This document shows positions 5,404 to 33,122 of a stretch of DNA of 33,122 nucleotides, in pieces (within the stretch, counting starts at the first letter, position 1; every line of letters begins with the position of its first letter). Source of the stretch: Aquificaceae bacterium (GTDB lineage Bacteria; Aquificota; Aquificia; Aquificales; Aquificaceae). The position numbers and the translations under genes were made by a program. The stretch covers positions 1 through 33,122 of the forward strand of contig WFYI01000045.1 of the NCBI GenBank assembly GCA_015490155.1, written 5' to 3'. The notes beneath the pieces are model-generated. The model saw only the letters and a program-made list of their open reading frames with translations. It was not told the origin of the DNA and ran no database searches.

Positions 5404-6503
5404 TACTCCTTAAACTCCGGCATCTTCTCCACGTAAACAGACCTGCTGGGAAACGCAAAAGAAGAGCCGTTTTTCTCAACTATCTCCATTATCTTTAGGT
5501 TTACGTCCTCTCTTATCTCTAAATACTTAGCCCAGTTGGCGGTGTTGGTAAAGCAGTAAACAAATATATCCAGAGAGCTATCGTTAAACCTCTCGAAGTA
5601 AACCATTATGAGTTGGTCCTTAGCTATTCCCGGATGTTCGTGCAACATCCTCCTTATATCCTCGAGGATACTTCTCATCTGTTGGGAGGTGGTCTCGTAG
5701 GTTAGCCCCAAATACATCTTAATTCTCCTAACTCCCCTCCTTGAGAAGTTCTCGACGGGGTTGGTAGCGAACACCTGATTCGGAACCGTGATAAGACTCT
5801 TCTCGAAGGTTCGGACTTTTGTTGTTCTCATTCCTATGTCTTCCACTATTCCCTCTACGCCCCCGACCTTTACCCAGTCACCTATCCCCAAGGACTTGTC
5901 TGCGAGTATGGTTAACCCACCAAAAAGGTTTGCAGCAGTATCCTTAGCAGCGAGGGCAACCGCCAAGCCACCTATACCCAATGACGCTATCAGCGTGCTT
6001 ACGTTTATCCCCCATTCCTGAAGTATTGCGACAGCCCCCACAACTATAACGAAGGCTTTTGCCAGCTTAACCAGAAAGCTCCCTACCTCCCTGGCAAACT
6101 CTTTACCGAATTTCTCCGCAAACCTGTATATGTAAGGCTCAAAACCGATTATAAGGTTGTAAGATGCCCAAAATAGCCCCACTATGAGGAAGGTTTTAAG
6201 AACCTTTAGGACTACACCCTCCTCTACGCCTACAACGTACAGGGACAGAGAAATACCTATAGCTATAAAAACATAGCTAACGGGTCTTTTAAGAGCCTCG
6301 AGAAGTAGGTCGTCTATTTGCGTGGCAGTTCTTTGCGTCAGCTTTCTGATAAATCCTATAACAATTAAAACAAAGAGTTTTCTCAGAAAGACAAAGAATA
6401 GGAATATAACCACAGAGAGCGTGAGCTTGTACAGAGGGACACCCAGAACTACATAATTTATATGTTTCTCTATACCCCTGATAAGCTCAAGCAGAGCTTC
6501 CAT
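5403..6503 (-). CDS. Small-conductance mechanosensitive channel (MscS family)
   Basis: 366-residue membrane channel that opens under membrane tension to release solutes on osmotic downshock. Four or five hydrophobic segments precede the pore helix at about 170-197 (LIASLGIGGLAVALAAKDTA, then ANLFGG), the hallmark Gly/Ala-rich TM3 of MscS. The beta domain follows with GDWVKVGGVEGIVEDIGMRTTKVR and IPN-like VPNQVFATNPVENFSRR. The length is greater than E. coli MscS (286) because of extra N-terminal membrane segments. It is the first gene of an operon with three glycan-assembly genes. No Shine-Dalgarno is seen; TATCAT at 6512-6517 and CATAAT at 6509-6514 lie immediately upstream of the ATG. Confidence 0.93.
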   Translation of the reverse strand: MEALLELIRGIEKHINYVVLGVPLYKLTLSVVIFLFFVFLRKLFVLIVIGFIRKLTQRTATQIDDLLLEALKRPVSYVFIAIGISLSLYVVGVEEGVVLKVLKTFLIVGLFWASYNLIIGFEPYIYRFAEKFGKEFAREVGSFLVKLAKAFVIVVGAVAILQEWGINVSTLIASLGIGGLAVALAAKDTAANLFGGLTILADKSLGIGDWVKVGGVEGIVEDIGMRTTKVRTFEKSLITVPNQVFATNPVENFSRRGVRRIKMYLGLTYETTSQQMRSILEDIRRMLHEHPGIAKDQLIMVYFERFNDSSLDIFVYCFTNTANWAKYLEIREDVNLKIMEIVEKNGSSFAFPSRSVYVEKMPEFKE

Positions 6504-6537
6504 AGCTTATTATGATAATGGACATTTTAATCATAGA

Positions 6538-6566
6538 TTGGGATTGATAAAATTTGAGTGTAAATA
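6538..6566 (+). promoter_or_regulatory. Probable promoter of tpx
   Basis: TTGGGA (6538-6543) and TAAATA (6561-6566) are separated by 17 bases, placing transcription start near 6573. The gene then has a conventional leader with AGGAGG at 6577-6582, seven bases before the ATG at 6589. This is a normal leadered arrangement, unlike several other starts in the window. Confidence 0.45.
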
Positions 6567-6588
6567 AATACCATAAGGAGGTAAAAGC

Positions 6589-7101
6589 ATGGCAGAGACG
6601 GTCACTCTTAAAGGAAATACAGTTAGCCTAGTTGGTCCTGCTCTCAACGTCGGGGACGACGCCCCGGAAGCCGTTGTGGTAACGAAAGACTTGGAAGAGA
6701 AGAGAATAGGCGGTGCCAAGGGAAAGGTTCAGCTTATAATAACCGTTCCCTCTTTGGACACGCCCGTGTGTGAAACGGAAACCAAAAAGTTCAACGAGAT
6801 GGTATCCGGCTTAGGAAATAGCGTAGATGTGACGGTTGTGTCCATGGACTTACCCTTTGCGGAAAAGAGGTTCTGTGAGAGCTTCAGCATAGGGAATGTC
6901 ACCGTAGCCTCCGACTTTAGGTACAGGGACATGGAAAAGTTCGGCGTTCTCATATCCGAGGGTGCCTTAAAGGGAATCCTTGCGAGAGCGGTATTCGTAG
7001 TTGATAAAGAGGGCAAAGTAGCTTATAAACAGCTGGTTCCCGAGATAACAGAAGAGCCGAATTACGACGAGGTTATAGAAAAGGTCAAGTCTCTCGTTTA
7101 A
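6589..7101 (+). CDS. tpx: Thiol peroxidase
   Basis: Atypical 2-Cys peroxiredoxin that reduces hydrogen peroxide and organic peroxides using thioredoxin-type reductants in the cytoplasm. The 170-residue length is standard. The active site PSLDTPVCETET places the peroxidatic cysteine at Cys61, with the Thr four residues before it, and the resolving cysteine is Cys96 in KRFCESF. The N-terminal TLKGN and VGDDAP segments are typical of the Tpx group rather than AhpC. It has a strong Shine-Dalgarno, a candidate promoter and a hairpin after the stop, so it is probably a single-gene transcript. It lies divergent from the MscS operon and convergent to coaX. Confidence 0.96.
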   Translation: MAETVTLKGNTVSLVGPALNVGDDAPEAVVVTKDLEEKRIGGAKGKVQLIITVPSLDTPVCETETKKFNEMVSGLGNSVDVTVVSMDLPFAEKRFCESFSIGNVTVASDFRYRDMEKFGVLISEGALKGILARAVFVVDKEGKVAYKQLVPEITEEPNYDEVIEKVKSLV

Positions 7102-7104
7102 CAT

Positions 7105-7129
7105 CCTGCGGGGGGTTTCCCCCCAAAGG
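7105..7129. terminator. G6/C6 hairpin between tpx and coaX
   Basis: GGGGGG (7110-7115), TTT, CCCCCC (7119-7124) form a perfect six-base-pair stem with a three-base loop; CCT at 7105-7107 can add three pairs with AGG at 7127-7129 across a small internal loop. It fills the 28-base gap between two convergent genes, so it may act on both transcripts. No T-run follows on either strand, so it is not a classical intrinsic terminator; it could instead serve as a 3' end stabiliser. Confidence 0.5.
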
Positions 7130-7792
7130 TTAAATAAGCTTAAGCATAGCCCTGTGCGTCAAGAGTTCGTCGTATATACCTAAGTCTTCAAACAACTTGC
7201 CTTCCCCTCCGGTGATTATGGTTTCTTCTAAATTCCAAACCTTTTTACACCTCTCTATAAGAGCCTTTACCTCACCTATCACCCCACCTAAGACGGCTTC
7301 CTCGGTAGTCCTGCCGTAGTTTACCTCTAAGGATTTTGGCTTCAGAAGTGGGATGCCCTCTGTGGACTGAGACAGAGCTTTCAACTTGAGACTAACTCCG
7401 GCTGTTATAAACCCCCCTTTAAAAACACCTTTTTCGAGCAAGTCTACGACCACGGCTGTTCCGCAACTGACGACTACCGCGCTGTCAGAATAAATCTCTC
7501 TAACGCCGAAGGCGTTTATAACTCTATCTATACCTAAGCTTTCCTTAGTTCTGTAATCAATCCCTATAGGTATGTCTTCCAAGGTCAAAAACCTTATCTC
7601 TCCGAATGTCTGGGTAAGTAGCCCTCTCAGGCTCGGCTTTACGCTCACGCACAGGACTTTTTCGTAACTTCCGGTTAAAGAACTTACCTTCCCGTGGGGA
7701 ATTTTATCTCTCTTAATAAGCTCATTCCCCTCCCATAGGCAGACATCTACGGTGGTATTCCCAACATCGAGGGTCAGTATTTTACCTTGCAT
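7130..7792 (-). CDS. coaX: Type III pantothenate kinase
   Basis: Phosphorylates pantothenate, the first step of coenzyme A synthesis; type III enzymes are not inhibited by CoA. The 220-residue protein has the ASKHA-fold marks: LDVGNTTVDVCLWEG at the N-terminus (phosphate-1 loop with the first Asp), GIDR near 97-100, SCGTAVVVDLL near 123-133 and the C-terminal TGGEGK. The length is a little under the usual 240-260. The ATG at 7792 lies 19 bases inside the end of thrB and has AAGG directly before it, so the exact start is not certain; a CTG at Leu6-7 is an alternative. The overlap suggests co-transcription with thrB. Confidence 0.92.
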   Translation of the reverse strand: MQGKILTLDVGNTTVDVCLWEGNELIKRDKIPHGKVSSLTGSYEKVLCVSVKPSLRGLLTQTFGEIRFLTLEDIPIGIDYRTKESLGIDRVINAFGVREIYSDSAVVVSCGTAVVVDLLEKGVFKGGFITAGVSLKLKALSQSTEGIPLLKPKSLEVNYGRTTEEAVLGGVIGEVKALIERCKKVWNLEETIITGGEGKLFEDLGIYDELLTHRAMLKLI

Positions 7793-27046: not shown

Positions 27047-27797
27047 GGAGATAAAGCTCGTCTCCCACACTCATCTTCCCGCCACTTAAAGTATTCGTGT
27101 TAATTGACAACCTGTAATATGTGTCCTCAAAAAGGGTTTTGTCAGCCCACCGAGGCAGTTCCTCTCGGCGCATATCTACAAACTTGTTCACAAACCCGGA
27201 GTAAACTTCCGCAGTAAAGGGGTCTCTCGTGGGTACGGGGCATCTCTTTGAGATTCCTTCTCCTCTGAAAACCACCCCTCCCAATCTGAATTCTCTGCCC
27301 ACCAATCTGTCTTCCCAAAATGGGATATCCACATCAAGCTCTATATTTGCCCTGAACCTTCTCCTTACATTTTCCTCCGATACTCCGAACAGGACAGATA
27401 CTCTTCTTATACTTCCGAGGGATATAACCGTAGGGCCGTGAGCCTTCTTATCGTCGGGAAAGCCTCCATCCTTTGAGCGTTTAAGGAAAACTCTGTATCC
27501 CAAAACTTCTGATAGCCAGTCGCTTATCTTTTTGGTCTCCTCCAGTACAAAACTCTCCGATTGATTTTTGAATTCCAGCTTTACCGTGCCTGCTTTTAGG
27601 TCGTAGAAAGCCCTTATCCTGTGTATATTCTTTTCCCTTTTTCCGCTGATGGCGTTTCCCTCCTCGTCAAATATGGCGAACTCCCTATCGTGCTTTAGCG
27701 AGCCTTTTTTTACTGTCTGCGTACTTTCCACATCTACGGGGTCAAGCCCCTTTATGGGATACACTCGGATTTTATAGACCTTCACACCCGCACTCAT
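27042..27797 (-). CDS. MOSC-domain protein
   Basis: 251-residue protein with the MOSC_N beta-barrel domain ([18 protein letters not shown] at 7-24, then [17 protein letters not shown]) and a C-terminal MOSC domain (about 120-245). The conserved cysteine is Cys186 in [19 protein letters not shown] proteins handle sulfur or reduce N-hydroxylated compounds with molybdenum cofactor, as in YcbX and mARC; the substrate here is unknown. No ferredoxin domain is fused, unlike YcbX. The start overlaps the sigma-54 activator's stop (ATGA), so it is translationally coupled to that regulator and is the last gene of the run. Confidence 0.9.
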
Positions 27798-29323
27798 CTG
27801 GGTATCTTTATGCCGTATTTCTGTATTCTGTAGCTCACCTGTCTGGGGGTCATTCCCAGTTTCTCGGCGGCCTTTTTTATAACAAAGTCGTTCTCCCTCA
27901 GAGCTTCTTCTATCAGCTTCCTTTCAATCTCCCATATAGAACCTTTGTCGGGCTGTTTTACAGGCTCTTCCTTTACCCGGTGGGTCACACTCTTTTTGGT
28001 CTTTAACTCCGGAGGAAGGTCTTTGGAGGTAAGGACTCCATCTGTATCGAGGATTATCATTCTCTCTATGACGTTCTGAAGTTCTCTAACGTTTCCCTTC
28101 CACTCGTAAGACATAAATGCCTCCATAACCTCCTGAGATATGTTTACGCTCTTCCCGTATTCCCTCGAGAAGCTCTCGACAAAATGATTTACGAGAATAG
28201 GAATGTCTTCCCTTCTATCCCTGAGAGGGGGTATGTATATGGGAACAACGTTCAGTCGGTAGTACAGGTCTTCCCTGAACTTTCCCTCCTCCATTAAACT
28301 CTCAAGCTCCCTATTTGTGGCTGCGACTATTCGAACGTCTACCTTTACAGGTTTACCTGAACCTAGCCTCTCTATCTCCTTCTCCTGAAGGACTCTTAGG
28401 AGTTTTACCTGAAGTGCAAGGGAAATATCGCCTATCTCGTCGAGGAATATAGTTCCCCCGTCAGCAAGCTCGAACTTTCCCTTCTTAGAGGTGTACGCTC
28501 CTGTAAAAGCTCCTTTCTCGTATCCGAAAAGCTCTGCTTCCAAAAGATTTTCCGGTATTGCCGCACAGTTCACAGTTATAAAGGGCTTATTTGCCCGTGG
28601 ACTTAGGAAGTGTATAGCCCTCGCAAATACCTCTTTTCCCACGCCACTTTCTCCCCTAAGCAAAACCGTTGCGTTGGTAGGGGCTACCCTGTGAACTACA
28701 TCCAGAACATCTATTATGTGCTTGCTCCTTCCCACTATGCCCTCAACCTTTAAATCCTTGTAAAGTCTCTTTATTTCAACTTCCAAGGCTCTCTTTTCAC
28801 TTTCGAGGGCGCTTTTCTCTTCCTGAACCTTTTTCTCAAGAGAAAAACTGCTGGATATAAGCGTAGCCACCATGTTCAAAAACTTCGTAAGCTCGTCCAA
28901 GGATTCCCTGCCGGAGATTACCCTATCCGCACTCAAAACCCCTATAACTCTGCCCCCGCTCTTTATTGGAACAGCTATAAAGGCAATTCTCTTGTTTTTT
29001 ACACTCTTCCTTTTCCATAGCTTGTTGAGGAACTCAGGCTCCTTAGAGATGTCGGGTATAACTATCGGTACTCCGTGCTTCCAAACCTTACCCGTAATTC
29101 CCTCTCCCTTCTTAAAACCCTCTCTGGGAAAATTTCCCGACGAGGTGGCTTTTACGACTATCTGGTCTGTTGAGGGGTCGTATATGGTAAGCGTAATCCT
29201 CTCAAACCCCGTGAGCTTCCTAAGTAACCTAAACACATACGGAACAGTTGCCTCAAGGTTCAAAGAGCCTGCAAGGAGTTTACTTACCTCGTAAAGGGTT
29301 TCAAGTTCTAATTTGCAATCCAT
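27794..29323 (-). CDS. Sigma-54-dependent activator, NifA-like (GAF-AAA-Fis)
   Basis: 509-residue enhancer-binding protein that remodels sigma-54 RNA polymerase. Domains: GAF sensor about 15-160; short coiled coil about 163-192; AAA+ domain about 195-430 with Walker A GESGVGKE (224-231), the sigma-54-contacting GAFTGA (271-276), Walker B IFLDEIG (292-298) and [13 protein letters not shown] (349-361); C-terminal Fis-type helix-turn-helix about 475-505 ([20 protein letters not shown]), close to that of NifA. There is no response-regulator receiver, so the signal is a small molecule or partner sensed by GAF. Its targets are not evident; no clear -24/-12 element was found in the window. It starts one base after the GT4 stop and overlaps the MOSC gene. 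Confidence 0.95.
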
Positions 29324-29324
29324 A

Positions 29325-30398
29325 TTAAGTTATTTTTGCATAATCTCCGACGAATTTTGCAACCTTACTTCTGAAAGCCTCTGCCGTAAACCGCTTTGCC
29401 CACTCAAGACAGCGCCTTGATATAAGTAAATAGCTGTCCCTATCCTGCCAAAGCTCTAAAACTCTATCAGCCATCTCTTTGTAGTTGCTTACCAATGCAC
29501 CGGTTATACCGTCCCTTATACTGTCCCTTAGCCCATGAACCTTATAGCCAATTGCAGGCGTTCCGTGTGAGTTAGCTTCTATAACTACCATTCCCCAACC
29601 TTCCCTTATAGAAGGAACGAGCAAGAAATGAGATTTTTTAAGAATCTCAAGCTTTTTACTTTCCGGAATAAACCCCGTAAATATCAGCCCATCAATCCTA
29701 TACCTGTTCTCAAGGTAATTACGCAAGGGACCGTCACCGACTACAATCATCCTTGCGTCTTTAACCTTTTCCTTAACAAGGGCAAAGCTCTTTAAGGCAT
29801 CCTCCGGGTTTTTTGTTTTCTTAAGTCTTCCTAAATACACGAGGGTTAGGGTTTTCTCCTTGGCAGGGGGTTCGGAAAGTACACTGTAACTCAGAGGTGG
29901 GTTTATAACGCTAACTCTCTCAAATCCAAGATTAAGGAGGTCTTCCTTCGTGGATTCTGAAACCGTTAGACAGGGTGTTTTCCTGTAAAGACGCGCAAGG
30001 AACTTCTCTATGTATCTGAGAGGATAACCCATTACGCCGAACTCCGCATTAAAAAACTCCTGATAGAGCTGGTGAAACAACACCACGGAGCTTTCGTGCC
30101 AAAAGGAAAAATAGCCCGTTCCGTTGAACTCGTCTATAACGAGGGAGTAAAGCTCTTTATTCTTTAATAGATGTAAAAATCCGTAAAGGTGTGTCGTAAG
30201 CTCGTTTCCTTTTCTCATGAAAAGTATATTGTTCTTTGCCTCTTTACTTTTTAAGCCATCTGCACGGGAGGAAAACCAAACTACACCGTATCCTTTATCT
30301 ACGAGGAACCTTGCAAGCTCTAAGGTGTACCTCTCCGCTCCACCGCTCTGGGGATGCCACGGACATCTGCGGTTGAGTATAAGAACCTTTCCCCTCAT
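29325..30398 (-). CDS. GT4 (group 1) glycosyltransferase
   Basis: 357-residue GT-B glycosyltransferase. [21 protein letters not shown] (in part) at the N-terminus is the acceptor-side Gly-Gly-Ala-Glu loop typical of GT4; the second half has [30 protein letters not shown] and the sugar-nucleotide site [20 protein letters not shown] with its E-x7-E pair. It probably adds a sugar to a lipid-linked glycan at the cytoplasmic face. The start overlaps the upstream membrane-protein gene by four bases (ATGA), and the regulator gene follows after one base, so it belongs to the pilin/DUF2723 run. Confidence 0.93.
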
Positions 30399-30991
30399 GC
30401 TAAGTATAAGGAGACAAGCCAGAGCAGGTATCCCAAAACGCCGGATACTATAAACCTCCTGCTCCTAAGCCATATCCATGCAATCGTGCTTCCGACCCAT
30501 AGGAGTAACGAAAAAGGAACCAAAAAGCCCCATACCGCATGCGTCTTTCTCCTGTAGGTTTCCTGTTCTAAGACCGCACTTTTAAGCTCTTCGCTCAAAT
30601 TTCCGTGTTTTTGCTTTAGATAAGATAGCTTTAAGCCTATTATCTTTTCTGTGGCAAAGATTTCCACATCTTTAAAAGGAGAGTAAAAGCTCTCCACCTG
30701 CCTTACCGCTGCTCTTAGAGTTTCGTAACAGTGGAGTTTTTCGTCAAAGGTCTGAAGTTTCTCCTCACATAGTTTTTTTAACTTTTCAACTGCCTTTTCG
30801 GAGTATCCCAAAAATGGAACGTGAGCAAGTATAACCTTTTCGTAATAGTCCACAGCGGACACGAAATCCCTTTGCCTTTCCATTTTCTTAGCTTCCTTCA
30901 AAAAATCTCTTTGAAGGTCTATGTTTTTATATATGAAAAACACAAAGGTAAGCATGAAAATAATAGGCACAAACACCTTAGCGTTCGTCAT
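30395..30991 (-). CDS. Membrane protein of unknown function
   Basis: 198 residues from the ATG at 30991, which has GGAG seven bases upstream; an open frame runs 15 codons further but lacks a Shine-Dalgarno and is inside the DUF2723 gene. One hydrophobic segment is near the N-terminus (about 4-22) and two are at the C-terminus (about 150-170 and 178-197). Between them lies a long charged helical region (about 25-140) with a DYYEKVILAHVPFLGYSEKAVEKLKK segment resembling a single TPR-like hairpin (quoted in part). No family is recognised. It overlaps the DUF2723 gene by 14 bases and the GT4 gene by 4, so it is probably part of the same glycan-related unit. Confidence 0.75.
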   Translation of the reverse strand: MTNAKVFVPIIFMLTFVFFIYKNIDLQRDFLKEAKKMERQRDFVSAVDYYEKVILAHVPFLGYSEKAVEKLKKLCEEKLQTFDEKLHCYETLRAAVRQVESFYSPFKDVEIFATEKIIGLKLSYLKQKHGNLSEELKSAVLEQETYRRKTHAVWGFLVPFSLLLWVGSTIAWIWLRSRRFIVSGVLGYLLWLVSLYLA

Positions 30992-32792
30992 GTTTTTTCT
31001 CTCCCTCGATGTAGTAAAAGTTCTTTGAAAGGTCATTATGCTGAGCTATTTGAAAATACATATTCATAAATGTATCTATTTCCTCATTAGGGTTGGAGAG
31101 GGTAAAAAGAGTCTTCTTTTCCAGAATTTTTGATGCCATGGCGAAGTTGTAAGATACAAATTTACACAGGTTAACCGTGAAGTAGTCATCGCTTTTGTGG
31201 GATATACAATCCCTGTAGGGTGTAAACATAAACTTCTGGAAGTATAAGAAGTTATCCTCTATCCATCTCTTGTGTTTATCTTCTTCTCCCTTCGGAACGA
31301 GTTTGTAGTAAACGAGGTAAAACTTTGAACTGAGAGCATCACTCAGGAATATGCTCTTGTCTATGTGTCCCGAGGAAAAGAGCCTGTTATCCCTTGCAAG
31401 GTCTAACAAGTCCCCTCCGAAGAACTCCTTATGGGTAGCTTTGTAGAGGTCTGAAGGCTGACAGCCTCTCAGGTATATAGAGTTTTCCTCCGGAGGAATC
31501 TCAACGTTACATATATCGTTCCTGAACCCCATAAGGCTTTTTAAATACCAAGACAGGAAAATAGCGTTATCTCCCCGCGTTATGAAGAAGCTGTAACCGG
31601 GCATCGTGGTAAGCGTGGTTTTCATGTAGCTGTATGGAACGTAATTTCTGCTAAAGTTCTGGTCTAACGCTCTATCAAATAGAAATAGAAGGGGAAATGT
31701 CAGCACCACCAGAGGTACAACTCTGTAAGCAAGCTCCATATTTTTCTTTTTGAAAAACTCATATATCACGGTTAGAGGTAAACTACACAGCAGGGCAAAG
31801 AGCAAAAATGCAGGCATGTAATACTGGTGTGCAACTATGTAAAGGTGTCCAATATCAAGTTCTTCCCTTGCCAGAGTTATTTTGGCAAGGAATATTCCGA
31901 ACATAAAAAAGGAGGTTAGTATGAATGCGAATGCCCTTTTGGACTTTTTAAATAGTAAGAATAATCCCAACAAGAAAAGAAATACACCTACAAAGGTAAA
32001 GTTTTTAACCAAAATAAAGGTTAGGTTTTTTATTGCAATAACGTAGCCTTCTAAAAAGCCAAAACCACTCTCCACGGCTTCTAAGGAAGACGCTTTGCCG
32101 TAAGGCTTTCTAAGAAACATGTAGATGAAAGAACTTAGGTCTTTTGTGGGCATAAAGAGAAAGGCACTTTCCGAGTAACTTCTTACTATAGCATGCAGGT
32201 TTACGGTAAACCCCAACAGGAACAAAGGGATACTTTTCAAACCGTCAACTACGGCTCTTTTACCAAAGCTTAGGAACAGTAAGGCTAAAGGGACTAACAT
32301 AAATAGAGCGGTGTGATGATTCCCCGAACTCAAACCGAGGATTAGGGCAGAGGTGTAAATGTACTCCTTTTTATAGCCTTTCAAAGAGGCTAAAACCCCC
32401 ATATACAGCAAAAACGTTATTAAAAACAGGTTCAAGGGATAGAACTTCAGAACAACGGATTGCCCCATAAAGGAGTATGTAAAGGCTACATATACAACGC
32501 CAAACAGAGCAACAGTGCTGCTTTCGGTTAAAGCTTTAACAATCTTAAAAAGTAAAAAAAGGCTTAGGATTGAAAACAGAACAGAGCCAAAAATCATTCT
32601 TTCCGAGATATTACCTACAGGCAGGAAAGAAAGGAGCTTGTTTACTTCCAAATAAAGGGGACAACCCGGAGGGTGAGCTATACCGAGGGTTTGAGAAGCT
32701 GTAGCCAATCCACCTCCATCGCCCGTAGATATAACGGGATAAAAAAACAGCGTATATACAAGGGTTATAAATAGGAAGGGAGCAAGGAACAT
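30978..32792 (-). CDS. DUF2723 O-mannosyltransferase-like membrane protein
   Basis: 604-residue protein with about ten to twelve membrane segments in the first 370 residues and a soluble C-terminal region of about 200 residues. The first extracytoplasmic loop has STGDGGGLATASQTLGIAHP followed by PGCPLY, the DUF2723 signature (acidic residue, then lgiaHPPGyPLY). These GT-C-fold proteins are relatives of protein O-mannosyltransferases and include TMEM260-type enzymes. The catalytic acidic residue is presumably the Asp in TGDGG, where many members have DsgE. The ATG directly follows the stop of the pilin-like gene without a gap and without a Shine-Dalgarno, so it is translated after the pilin by coupling. 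The donor sugar is unknown. Confidence 0.82.
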   Translation of the reverse strand: MFLAPFLFITLVYTLFFYPVISTGDGGGLATASQTLGIAHPPGCPLYLEVNKLLSFLPVGNISERMIFGSVLFSILSLFLLFKIVKALTESSTVALFGVVYVAFTYSFMGQSVVLKFYPLNLFLITFLLYMGVLASLKGYKKEYIYTSALILGLSSGNHHTALFMLVPLALLFLSFGKRAVVDGLKSIPLFLLGFTVNLHAIVRSYSESAFLFMPTKDLSSFIYMFLRKPYGKASSLEAVESGFGFLEGYVIAIKNLTFILVKNFTFVGVFLFLLGLFLLFKKSKRAFAFILTSFFMFGIFLAKITLAREELDIGHLYIVAHQYYMPAFLLFALLCSLPLTVIYEFFKKKNMELAYRVVPLVVLTFPLLFLFDRALDQNFSRNYVPYSYMKTTLTTMPGYSFFITRGDNAIFLSWYLKSLMGFRNDICNVEIPPEENSIYLRGCQPSDLYKATHKEFFGGDLLDLARDNRLFSSGHIDKSIFLSDALSSKFYLVYYKLVPKGEEDKHKRWIEDNFLYFQKFMFTPYRDCISHKSDDYFTVNLCKFVSYNFAMASKILEKKTLFTLSNPNEEIDTFMNMYFQIAQHNDLSKNFYYIEGEKKHDER

Positions 32793-33122
32793 TTAGGTTG
32801 AGATTACCTCACACTTTACACCTTTATAACCAAGGATACACCTTGCTTTATACGCCGTTATTCCTCCGAGCGATGCGTCTACAGTTCCACCGGATACAGT
32901 TCCATCCGTTTCACAGGTAAAGGTTCCGCTTATGGTTATGGTAAGGTTGTAGTCCGGAACCGTGGTATCCGCACAATTCTTTAGATTAAGGGAAGTTATA
33001 TCCAAAGTTACAGCGCTGTCTGACACGTTAGCTATACAGTAAGCTATTATGTCCTTTGCACATGCGTTGGACACGGGAAGAGCAAAGGATGTAACCTTCG
33101 ATTTTTGCTGATACTTTATGTA
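32793..33122 (-). CDS. Type IV pilin-like protein (5' end beyond window edge)
   Basis: The frame is open from the window edge to TAA at 32795-32793, giving the last 109 residues. The visible part starts YIKYQQKSKVTSFALPVSNA, which matches the region just after the hydrophobic N-terminal helix of type IV pilins (family: ...IPQYxxYxxrsqvseal). A GTG inside (33074) is open but is unlikely to be the start. The rest is a beta-rich, Thr/Gly/Val-rich domain with cysteines at the start (NACAKDIIAYC), the middle (KNCADT, FTCET) and the end (ARCILGYKGVKCEVIST), suggesting disulfides and a C-terminal D-loop. The prepilin leader and Glu5 helix should lie just outside the window. It abuts the DUF2723 gene. 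Confidence 0.75.
   Translation of the reverse strand, partial: YIKYQQKSKVTSFALPVSNACAKDIIAYCIANVSDSAVTLDITSLNLKNCADTTVPDYNLTITISGTFTCETDGTVSGGTVDASLGGITAYKARCILGYKGVKCEVIST

Follow-up and report, generated by a model that had tools for sequence, protein, structure and literature searches.

A TMEM260-like glycosyltransferase encoded beside type IV pilins in Aquificota and Nitrospirota: a probable dedicated pilin glycosyltransferase

The TMEM260-like protein encoded directly after a type IV pilin gene in an Aquificaceae bacterium is probably a dedicated periplasmic pilin glycosyltransferase, fed by a polyprenyl-phosphate-sugar and partnered by a small membrane protein that we call F3. The literature searched, which took in few subscription journals, assigns no substrate to a bacterial DUF2723/TMEM260-like protein, and it yielded neither a paper on pilin glycosylation in Aquificota nor a report of this family acting in pilin glycosylation.

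The pilin locus and its junction with the transferase gene

The window, meaning the whole stretch of DNA analysed, is the entire contig C45 (G000:C45:1-33122; 33,122 nucleotides) of a 1.59-Mb, 127-contig assembly; the nearest relative's genome (G001) is from the same genus. Read inward from the contig end along the minus strand, the window presents a pilin fragment, the TMEM260-like gene, F3, a GT4 glycosyltransferase gene and a GAF/sigma-54 activator gene. The PilA2-like pilin (32793..33122, minus strand, 109 codons) is open at the contig end, where its 5' end is missing, and begins past the leader region; aligned with the complete orthologues of ten related loci it is 33-50% identical in the globular part, with six Cys common to both. 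The complete orthologues carry a type III leader of the G-F-[TS]-[LIV]-[IV]-E-L type (e.g. GFTLIEL, GFTIVEL) and a hydrophobic helix, the features by which the original prediction had proposed to check its pilin-like frame. Pfam N_methyl is matched by all three orthologues scanned and finds no match in the window fragment, from which the N_methyl region is absent. Most relatives have two tandem pilins, PilA1 and PilA2. In the window's genome a PilA1 start was located at the extreme end of contig C24; it has the leader NKGFTLIELLVVIAIIAILA, preceded by a strong ribosome site, and probably continues toward C45; because no exact overlap was found between the two contig ends, the join across the pilin is one that we only infer.

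Other genes lie nearby in particular lineages. Hydrogenobacter-type genomes have, upstream of the pilins, three to four tandem, gap-free copies of a 65-96-aa gene (MEWVQALTVIASL...; L020, oriented 7039-7683; L021:5511-6251; L025, oriented 5650-6558), and in one Sulfurihydrogenibium-type genome a transposase-looking, unrelated 327-aa ORF was seen by eye between the minor pilins and PilA1 (L028, oriented 6140-7123).

The junction in the window reads ...GAGGTAATCTCAACCTAA followed at once by ATG: the pilin TAA abuts the start codon of the transferase gene (30978..32792, minus strand, 604 aa) with zero gap, as first described, and in the same frame, and the nearest GAGG lies some 14-16 nt 5' of that ATG. 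Overlap of the two genes is seen in nine relatives (4 nt in three genomes, 16 nt in six), and several relatives have a Shine-Dalgarno-like AGGAG or GAGG within the last pilin codons; in Nitrospirota, gaps of 5-200 nt between pilin and transferase are frequent. The lack of a ribosome site, as originally claimed, is a property of the window's genome and does not extend to the family at large; both that claim and the one that production of the transferase depends strictly on translation of the pilin were too strong. Translational coupling from pilin to transferase is plausible on the sequence.

Conservation of the adjacency

The genomes sampled, many of them MAGs, represent two phyla, with 136 Aquificota (among them G029, which we take to be Hydrogenobacter thermophilus, and G048 and G056, presumably Sulfurihydrogenibium) and 296 Nitrospirota. 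Gene order was counted from mechanical ORF calls and a pilin leader pattern, three loci being assessed by eye. A contig search of the genomes found no loci when a single sequence was the query and six when an alignment was used; a plasmid search gave no match.

PF11028, the family of the transferase, scores above its cut-off in 14 of the 136 Aquificota genomes, as a single copy in each, and a pilin gene stands beside all 14. In 13 carriers the transferase is directly downstream of the pilin; in the remaining one (G059) the pilin is 463 nt upstream and, by eye, only a doubtful 66-codon ORF intervenes. Automated scoring of adjacency covered 12 of the 14 carriers, the window pilin, cut by the contig end, and that of G059 being judged by eye; the pilin of G057, which overlaps the transferase gene by 50 nt, was missed by the leader pattern, so that the automated scoring assigned a wrong pilin 370 nt away, and was likewise found by eye. 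The number of pilin-like genes per Aquificota genome ranges from 2 to 13. Among Nitrospirota, the 62 PF11028 matches examined come from 40 genomes, and 29 of these copies, in 25 genomes, have a pilin immediately before them, against a chance expectation of about 0.5 of the 62 at 13 pilins per 1,500 genes, related copies being non-independent. The survey of neighbourhoods called for by the original prediction thus finds the pairing of DUF2723 and pilin genes conserved across two phyla.

Pilin adjacency is clustered on the protein tree, requiring 4 changes against 24.5 in shuffles. The pilin-linked proteins form a mixed Aquificota-Nitrospirota clade (22 members), a Nitrospirota clade (15) and a separate clade (6). 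Because Aquificota and Nitrospirota members interleave, the tree suggests transfer between phyla. One member of the separate, distinct Nitrospirota clade bears C-terminal TPR repeats (L088:8783-10906), which were found in none of the Aquificota proteins scanned. On a Nitrospiraceae MAG contig (L037:6904-8175), a gene closely related to the Hydrogenobacter-type transferase has no pilin in front and is shortened near the contig end.

The outer flanks of the locus vary: some Hydrogenothermaceae have PilY1 and minor pilins there, Hydrogenobacter has unrelated genes, and Nitrospirota have a PilO/PilQ-containing pilus locus and genes resembling two-component genes. The presence of PilY1 and minor pilins nearby in several genomes, together with the resemblance of the GT4 and flippase genes to polysaccharide gene sets, could mean that the enzyme modifies another envelope target, such as PilY1, a surface polysaccharide or a lipid, and is merely located in a type IV pilus superlocus. 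We regard such a target as unlikely, since the transferase directly follows the pilin, often overlapping it, even though the other pilus neighbours differ between genomes, and since the same position is elsewhere occupied by STT3-type protein transferases.

The TMEM260-like transferase

PF11028, formerly DUF2723, is now named TMEM260-like in Pfam, and the window protein matches it at 3.3e-17 (63.3 bits, with a cut-off of 24.2). A profile of 12 Aquificota orthologues retrieves the protein O-mannosyltransferase TMEM260 (PDB 9rql) at 8e-41, the sole solved protein at E < 0.001; the match spans the membrane domain and ends at residue 468, past which the bacterial protein is either unrelated or too diverged. 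The AlphaFold model of the transferase is of low confidence (mean pLDDT 61), so that its Foldseek matches in the PDB (STT3, PglB, AftA and AftB) count only as support for a GT-C fold. The assignment of that fold in the original prediction stands on both the profile and the structural matches. TfpO (PilO) and PglL are enzymes of the Wzy_C type, and a Pfam search of the window up to E 0.1 returned no Wzy_C domain.

A GD motif and an AHPPGYP motif are common to the bacterial family and TMEM260. The first-loop Asp25 is invariant in the pilin-linked members (43/43), in which other motif residues are also kept. Lys52 is present in all 43 of these and in 17 of 32 others, and the second His of an HH pair in 36 of the 43 and 2 of the 32. 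In TMEM260 the first-loop motif is GDSGE; the Glu three residues past the Asp is Gly in the window protein and variable in others. The loss of this second acid in several members, the window protein among them, would suit a non-working transferase that had turned into an assembly accessory, like the TfpY-like proteins that follow pilA, without glycosylating, in some Pseudomonas strains (PMC11841053). We consider such a change of role very improbable, given the invariant Asp, the retention of the other motif residues, and the donor-synthase and glycosyltransferase genes that come next in the operon.

Human TMEM260 (CAZy GT117) attaches mannose to Ser/Thr residues within the beta-strands of Ig-like IPT domains, and the mannose is left unextended (PMC11292533); such an acceptor would suit the beta-sheet domain of the pilin. 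Ser and Thr make up 22% of the window pilin fragment, compared with a mean of 11% in the other proteins of these loci, and 21% of pilins in loci with the transferase as against 18% in those without (Mann-Whitney p=0.005, relatedness ignored). The pilin is thus rich in Ser and Thr, as had been remarked, but this is no special trait, pilins being so in general.

Replacement by STT3/PglB-type enzymes

The best evidence that pilin glycosylation is the function comes from genomes in which a different transferase family occupies the same position. PF02516 (STT3) scores above cut-off in 18 of 61 Aquificota genomes, and in six that lack PF11028 (G016, G023, G028, G030, G034 and G052) an STT3/PglB-type gene is directly downstream of the pilin (L145:8273-10255; L144:2682-4661; L141:2383-4365; L142:8077-9978; L135:1-1128). 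Between STT3 and pilin genes the overlap is 4 nt in two of these genomes and 16 nt in two others, the same lengths as at TMEM260-like loci. Both kinds of enzyme are of the GT-C type; those of the replacement loci belong to PF02516/PF21436 instead of PF11028, and their genomes are without F3. In G046 and G060 STT3 is directly upstream of a pilin, and in the window's own genome it is elsewhere, away from pilins. As one position exchanges transferase families, it can be argued that pilin modification is what selection keeps. In many Aquificota that possess these tandem pilins, the slot holds neither a TMEM260-like nor an STT3 gene, so the modification is dispensable.

F3 and the remaining operon genes

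The usual order is pilin, TMEM260-like, F3, GT4, polyprenyl-phosphate-sugar synthase, methyltransferase, GT4 and flippase. F3 (30395..30991, minus strand) is a 198-aa membrane protein for which no family was found in Pfam or NCBIfam. It is present in 13 of 61 Aquificota genomes, all 13 of which have the transferase; the divergent G057 alone has the transferase without F3. In the F3 model (pLDDT 90.6) an N-terminal membrane helix is followed by a soluble helical region, with a helical hairpin at the C-terminus. Foldseek found nothing significant for it in the PDB (best E 0.41), and because the only proteins that a profile search matched, at E 0.02-0.06, were designed TPR proteins, a TPR-like character is no more than hinted at by the sequence. 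F3, modelled as all-helical, is set apart by description from TfpY-like proteins, the models of which contain a beta-sheet (PMC11841053).

The GT4 gene (29325..30398, minus strand; PF00534, 4e-31) overlaps F3 by 4 nt, and its orthologues, 51-57% identical, hold the same position after F3 in ten relatives. At five loci (L092, L093, L096, L098 and L026) a GT9-like, heptosyltransferase-like enzyme stands in place of this GT4, and the donor or glycan probably varies among such loci. The GAF/sigma-54 activator gene (27794..29323, minus strand; PF00158, 1.7e-74) begins 1 nt beyond GT4. In the original prediction the GT4 enzyme and a membrane protein completed the unit, followed by the activator; the first two belong to it, and the activator, which has no homologue in thirteen related loci, was rejected as a member.

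The best solved relative of the operon GT2 is a dolichol-phosphate-mannose synthase (5mlz, 7e-31). This DPMS-like gene is in the operon in most relatives, and the window's genome has its orthologue, 62% identical, on contig C119. The methyltransferase, the second GT4 and a Wzx-like flippase continue the operon in most relatives, and an operon scan in one relative found the Wzx-like flippase present and GtrA absent from the operon proteins. In the window's genome the second GT4 is on C71 (L086:1738-5040), beside four genes that by eye look like dTDP-rhamnose-synthesis genes, a faint pointer to the sugar that the second GT4 uses. The Wzx-like gene is on C90 (L215, G000:C90:203-1429) and contains one in-frame TAA, either because the gene is broken or through an assembly error.

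That multiple GT4 genes share an operon with a methyltransferase gene and a Wzx-like flippase gene would also be expected of an oligosaccharyltransferase pathway. In such a pathway a lipid-linked oligosaccharide would be assembled in the cytoplasm by the GT4s and the methyltransferase and flipped by the Wzx-like protein, after which the TMEM260-like protein would transfer it whole to the pilin. The occupation of the slot by OST-type enzymes in other genera adds to the appeal of this scheme. We rate it as the less probable course, if one to be taken seriously, because TMEM260 adds single mannose units that in humans are not extended (PMC11292533) and because the DPMS-like synthase of the operon makes a one-sugar polyprenyl-phosphate donor.

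Proposed pathway and comparison with known systems

For the TMEM260-like protein as a dedicated pilin glycosyltransferase, the following pathway is envisaged. The DPMS-like GT2 synthase would load a sugar onto the polyprenyl-phosphate carrier, and the flippase would carry the lipid-linked sugar to the periplasmic face. There the GT-C enzyme, with the conserved first-loop Asp as base, would attach the sugar in O-linkage to Ser/Thr in the globular domain of the pilin whose gene lies just upstream, either ahead of pilus assembly or in the course of it. F3 would act as a dedicated partner, perhaps by aiding pilin docking, and the GT4 enzymes and methyltransferase would elaborate the glycan; with the Wzx-like protein, they leave room for a possible larger one. 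The points against a dedicated pilin glycosyltransferase are the Gly in place of the second first-loop acid here, the many tandem-pilin Aquificota with neither enzyme, and the one Nitrospirota MAG copy without a pilin. The more specific proposal, that the bacterial TMEM260-type (GT117-like) proteins are true pilin-dedicated protein O-mannosyl- or O-hexosyltransferases with a new membrane partner, F3, and a slot exchangeable with STT3-type enzymes, is advanced tentatively, as having somewhat less than an even chance of being right.

The TfpO (PilO)/PglL enzymes are likewise encoded beside a pilin gene and modify that pilin; they differ in being of the Wzy_C type, as opposed to PF11028. They were named as the linked-gene precedent in the original prediction, which is right in part, the nearest precedent being also TfpW, a pilin glycosyltransferase of the GT-C type. 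The Pseudomonas enzymes TfpO and TfpW each glycosylate the associated pilin, which protects against pilus phages, TfpO attaching O-antigen units (PMC11841053). TfpW, in P. aeruginosa group IV strains, is a pilin arabinosyltransferase, and its gene too is beside the pilin gene; the differences, compared by description, are that D-arabinofuranose is added and that no F3-like partner is described (PMC11841053). Human TMEM260 is of the same Pfam family and targets Ser/Thr of beta-sheet domains, and F3, in the bacteria, is a separate protein. The Gtr three-component system likewise comprises a polyprenyl-phosphate-sugar synthase, a flippase and a GT-C enzyme (PMC11127046), but its substrate is O-antigen and it uses GtrA as flippase, whereas here the candidate flippase resembles Wzx and a protein is proposed as acceptor.

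Significance

By means of the TMEM260-like family, these Aquificota and Nitrospirota probably decorate their own surface fibres with sugar, and in thermophiles the modification may be protective or stabilising. The conserved pilin partner gives this family a testable bacterial substrate, and as cultured thermophiles probably carry the locus, the proposal is directly testable. If true, a further GT-C family would join TfpO/PglL and TfpW in the glycosylation of pilins; on the more specific proposal, animal TMEM260 would also have a counterpart in bacteria whose substrate is defined.
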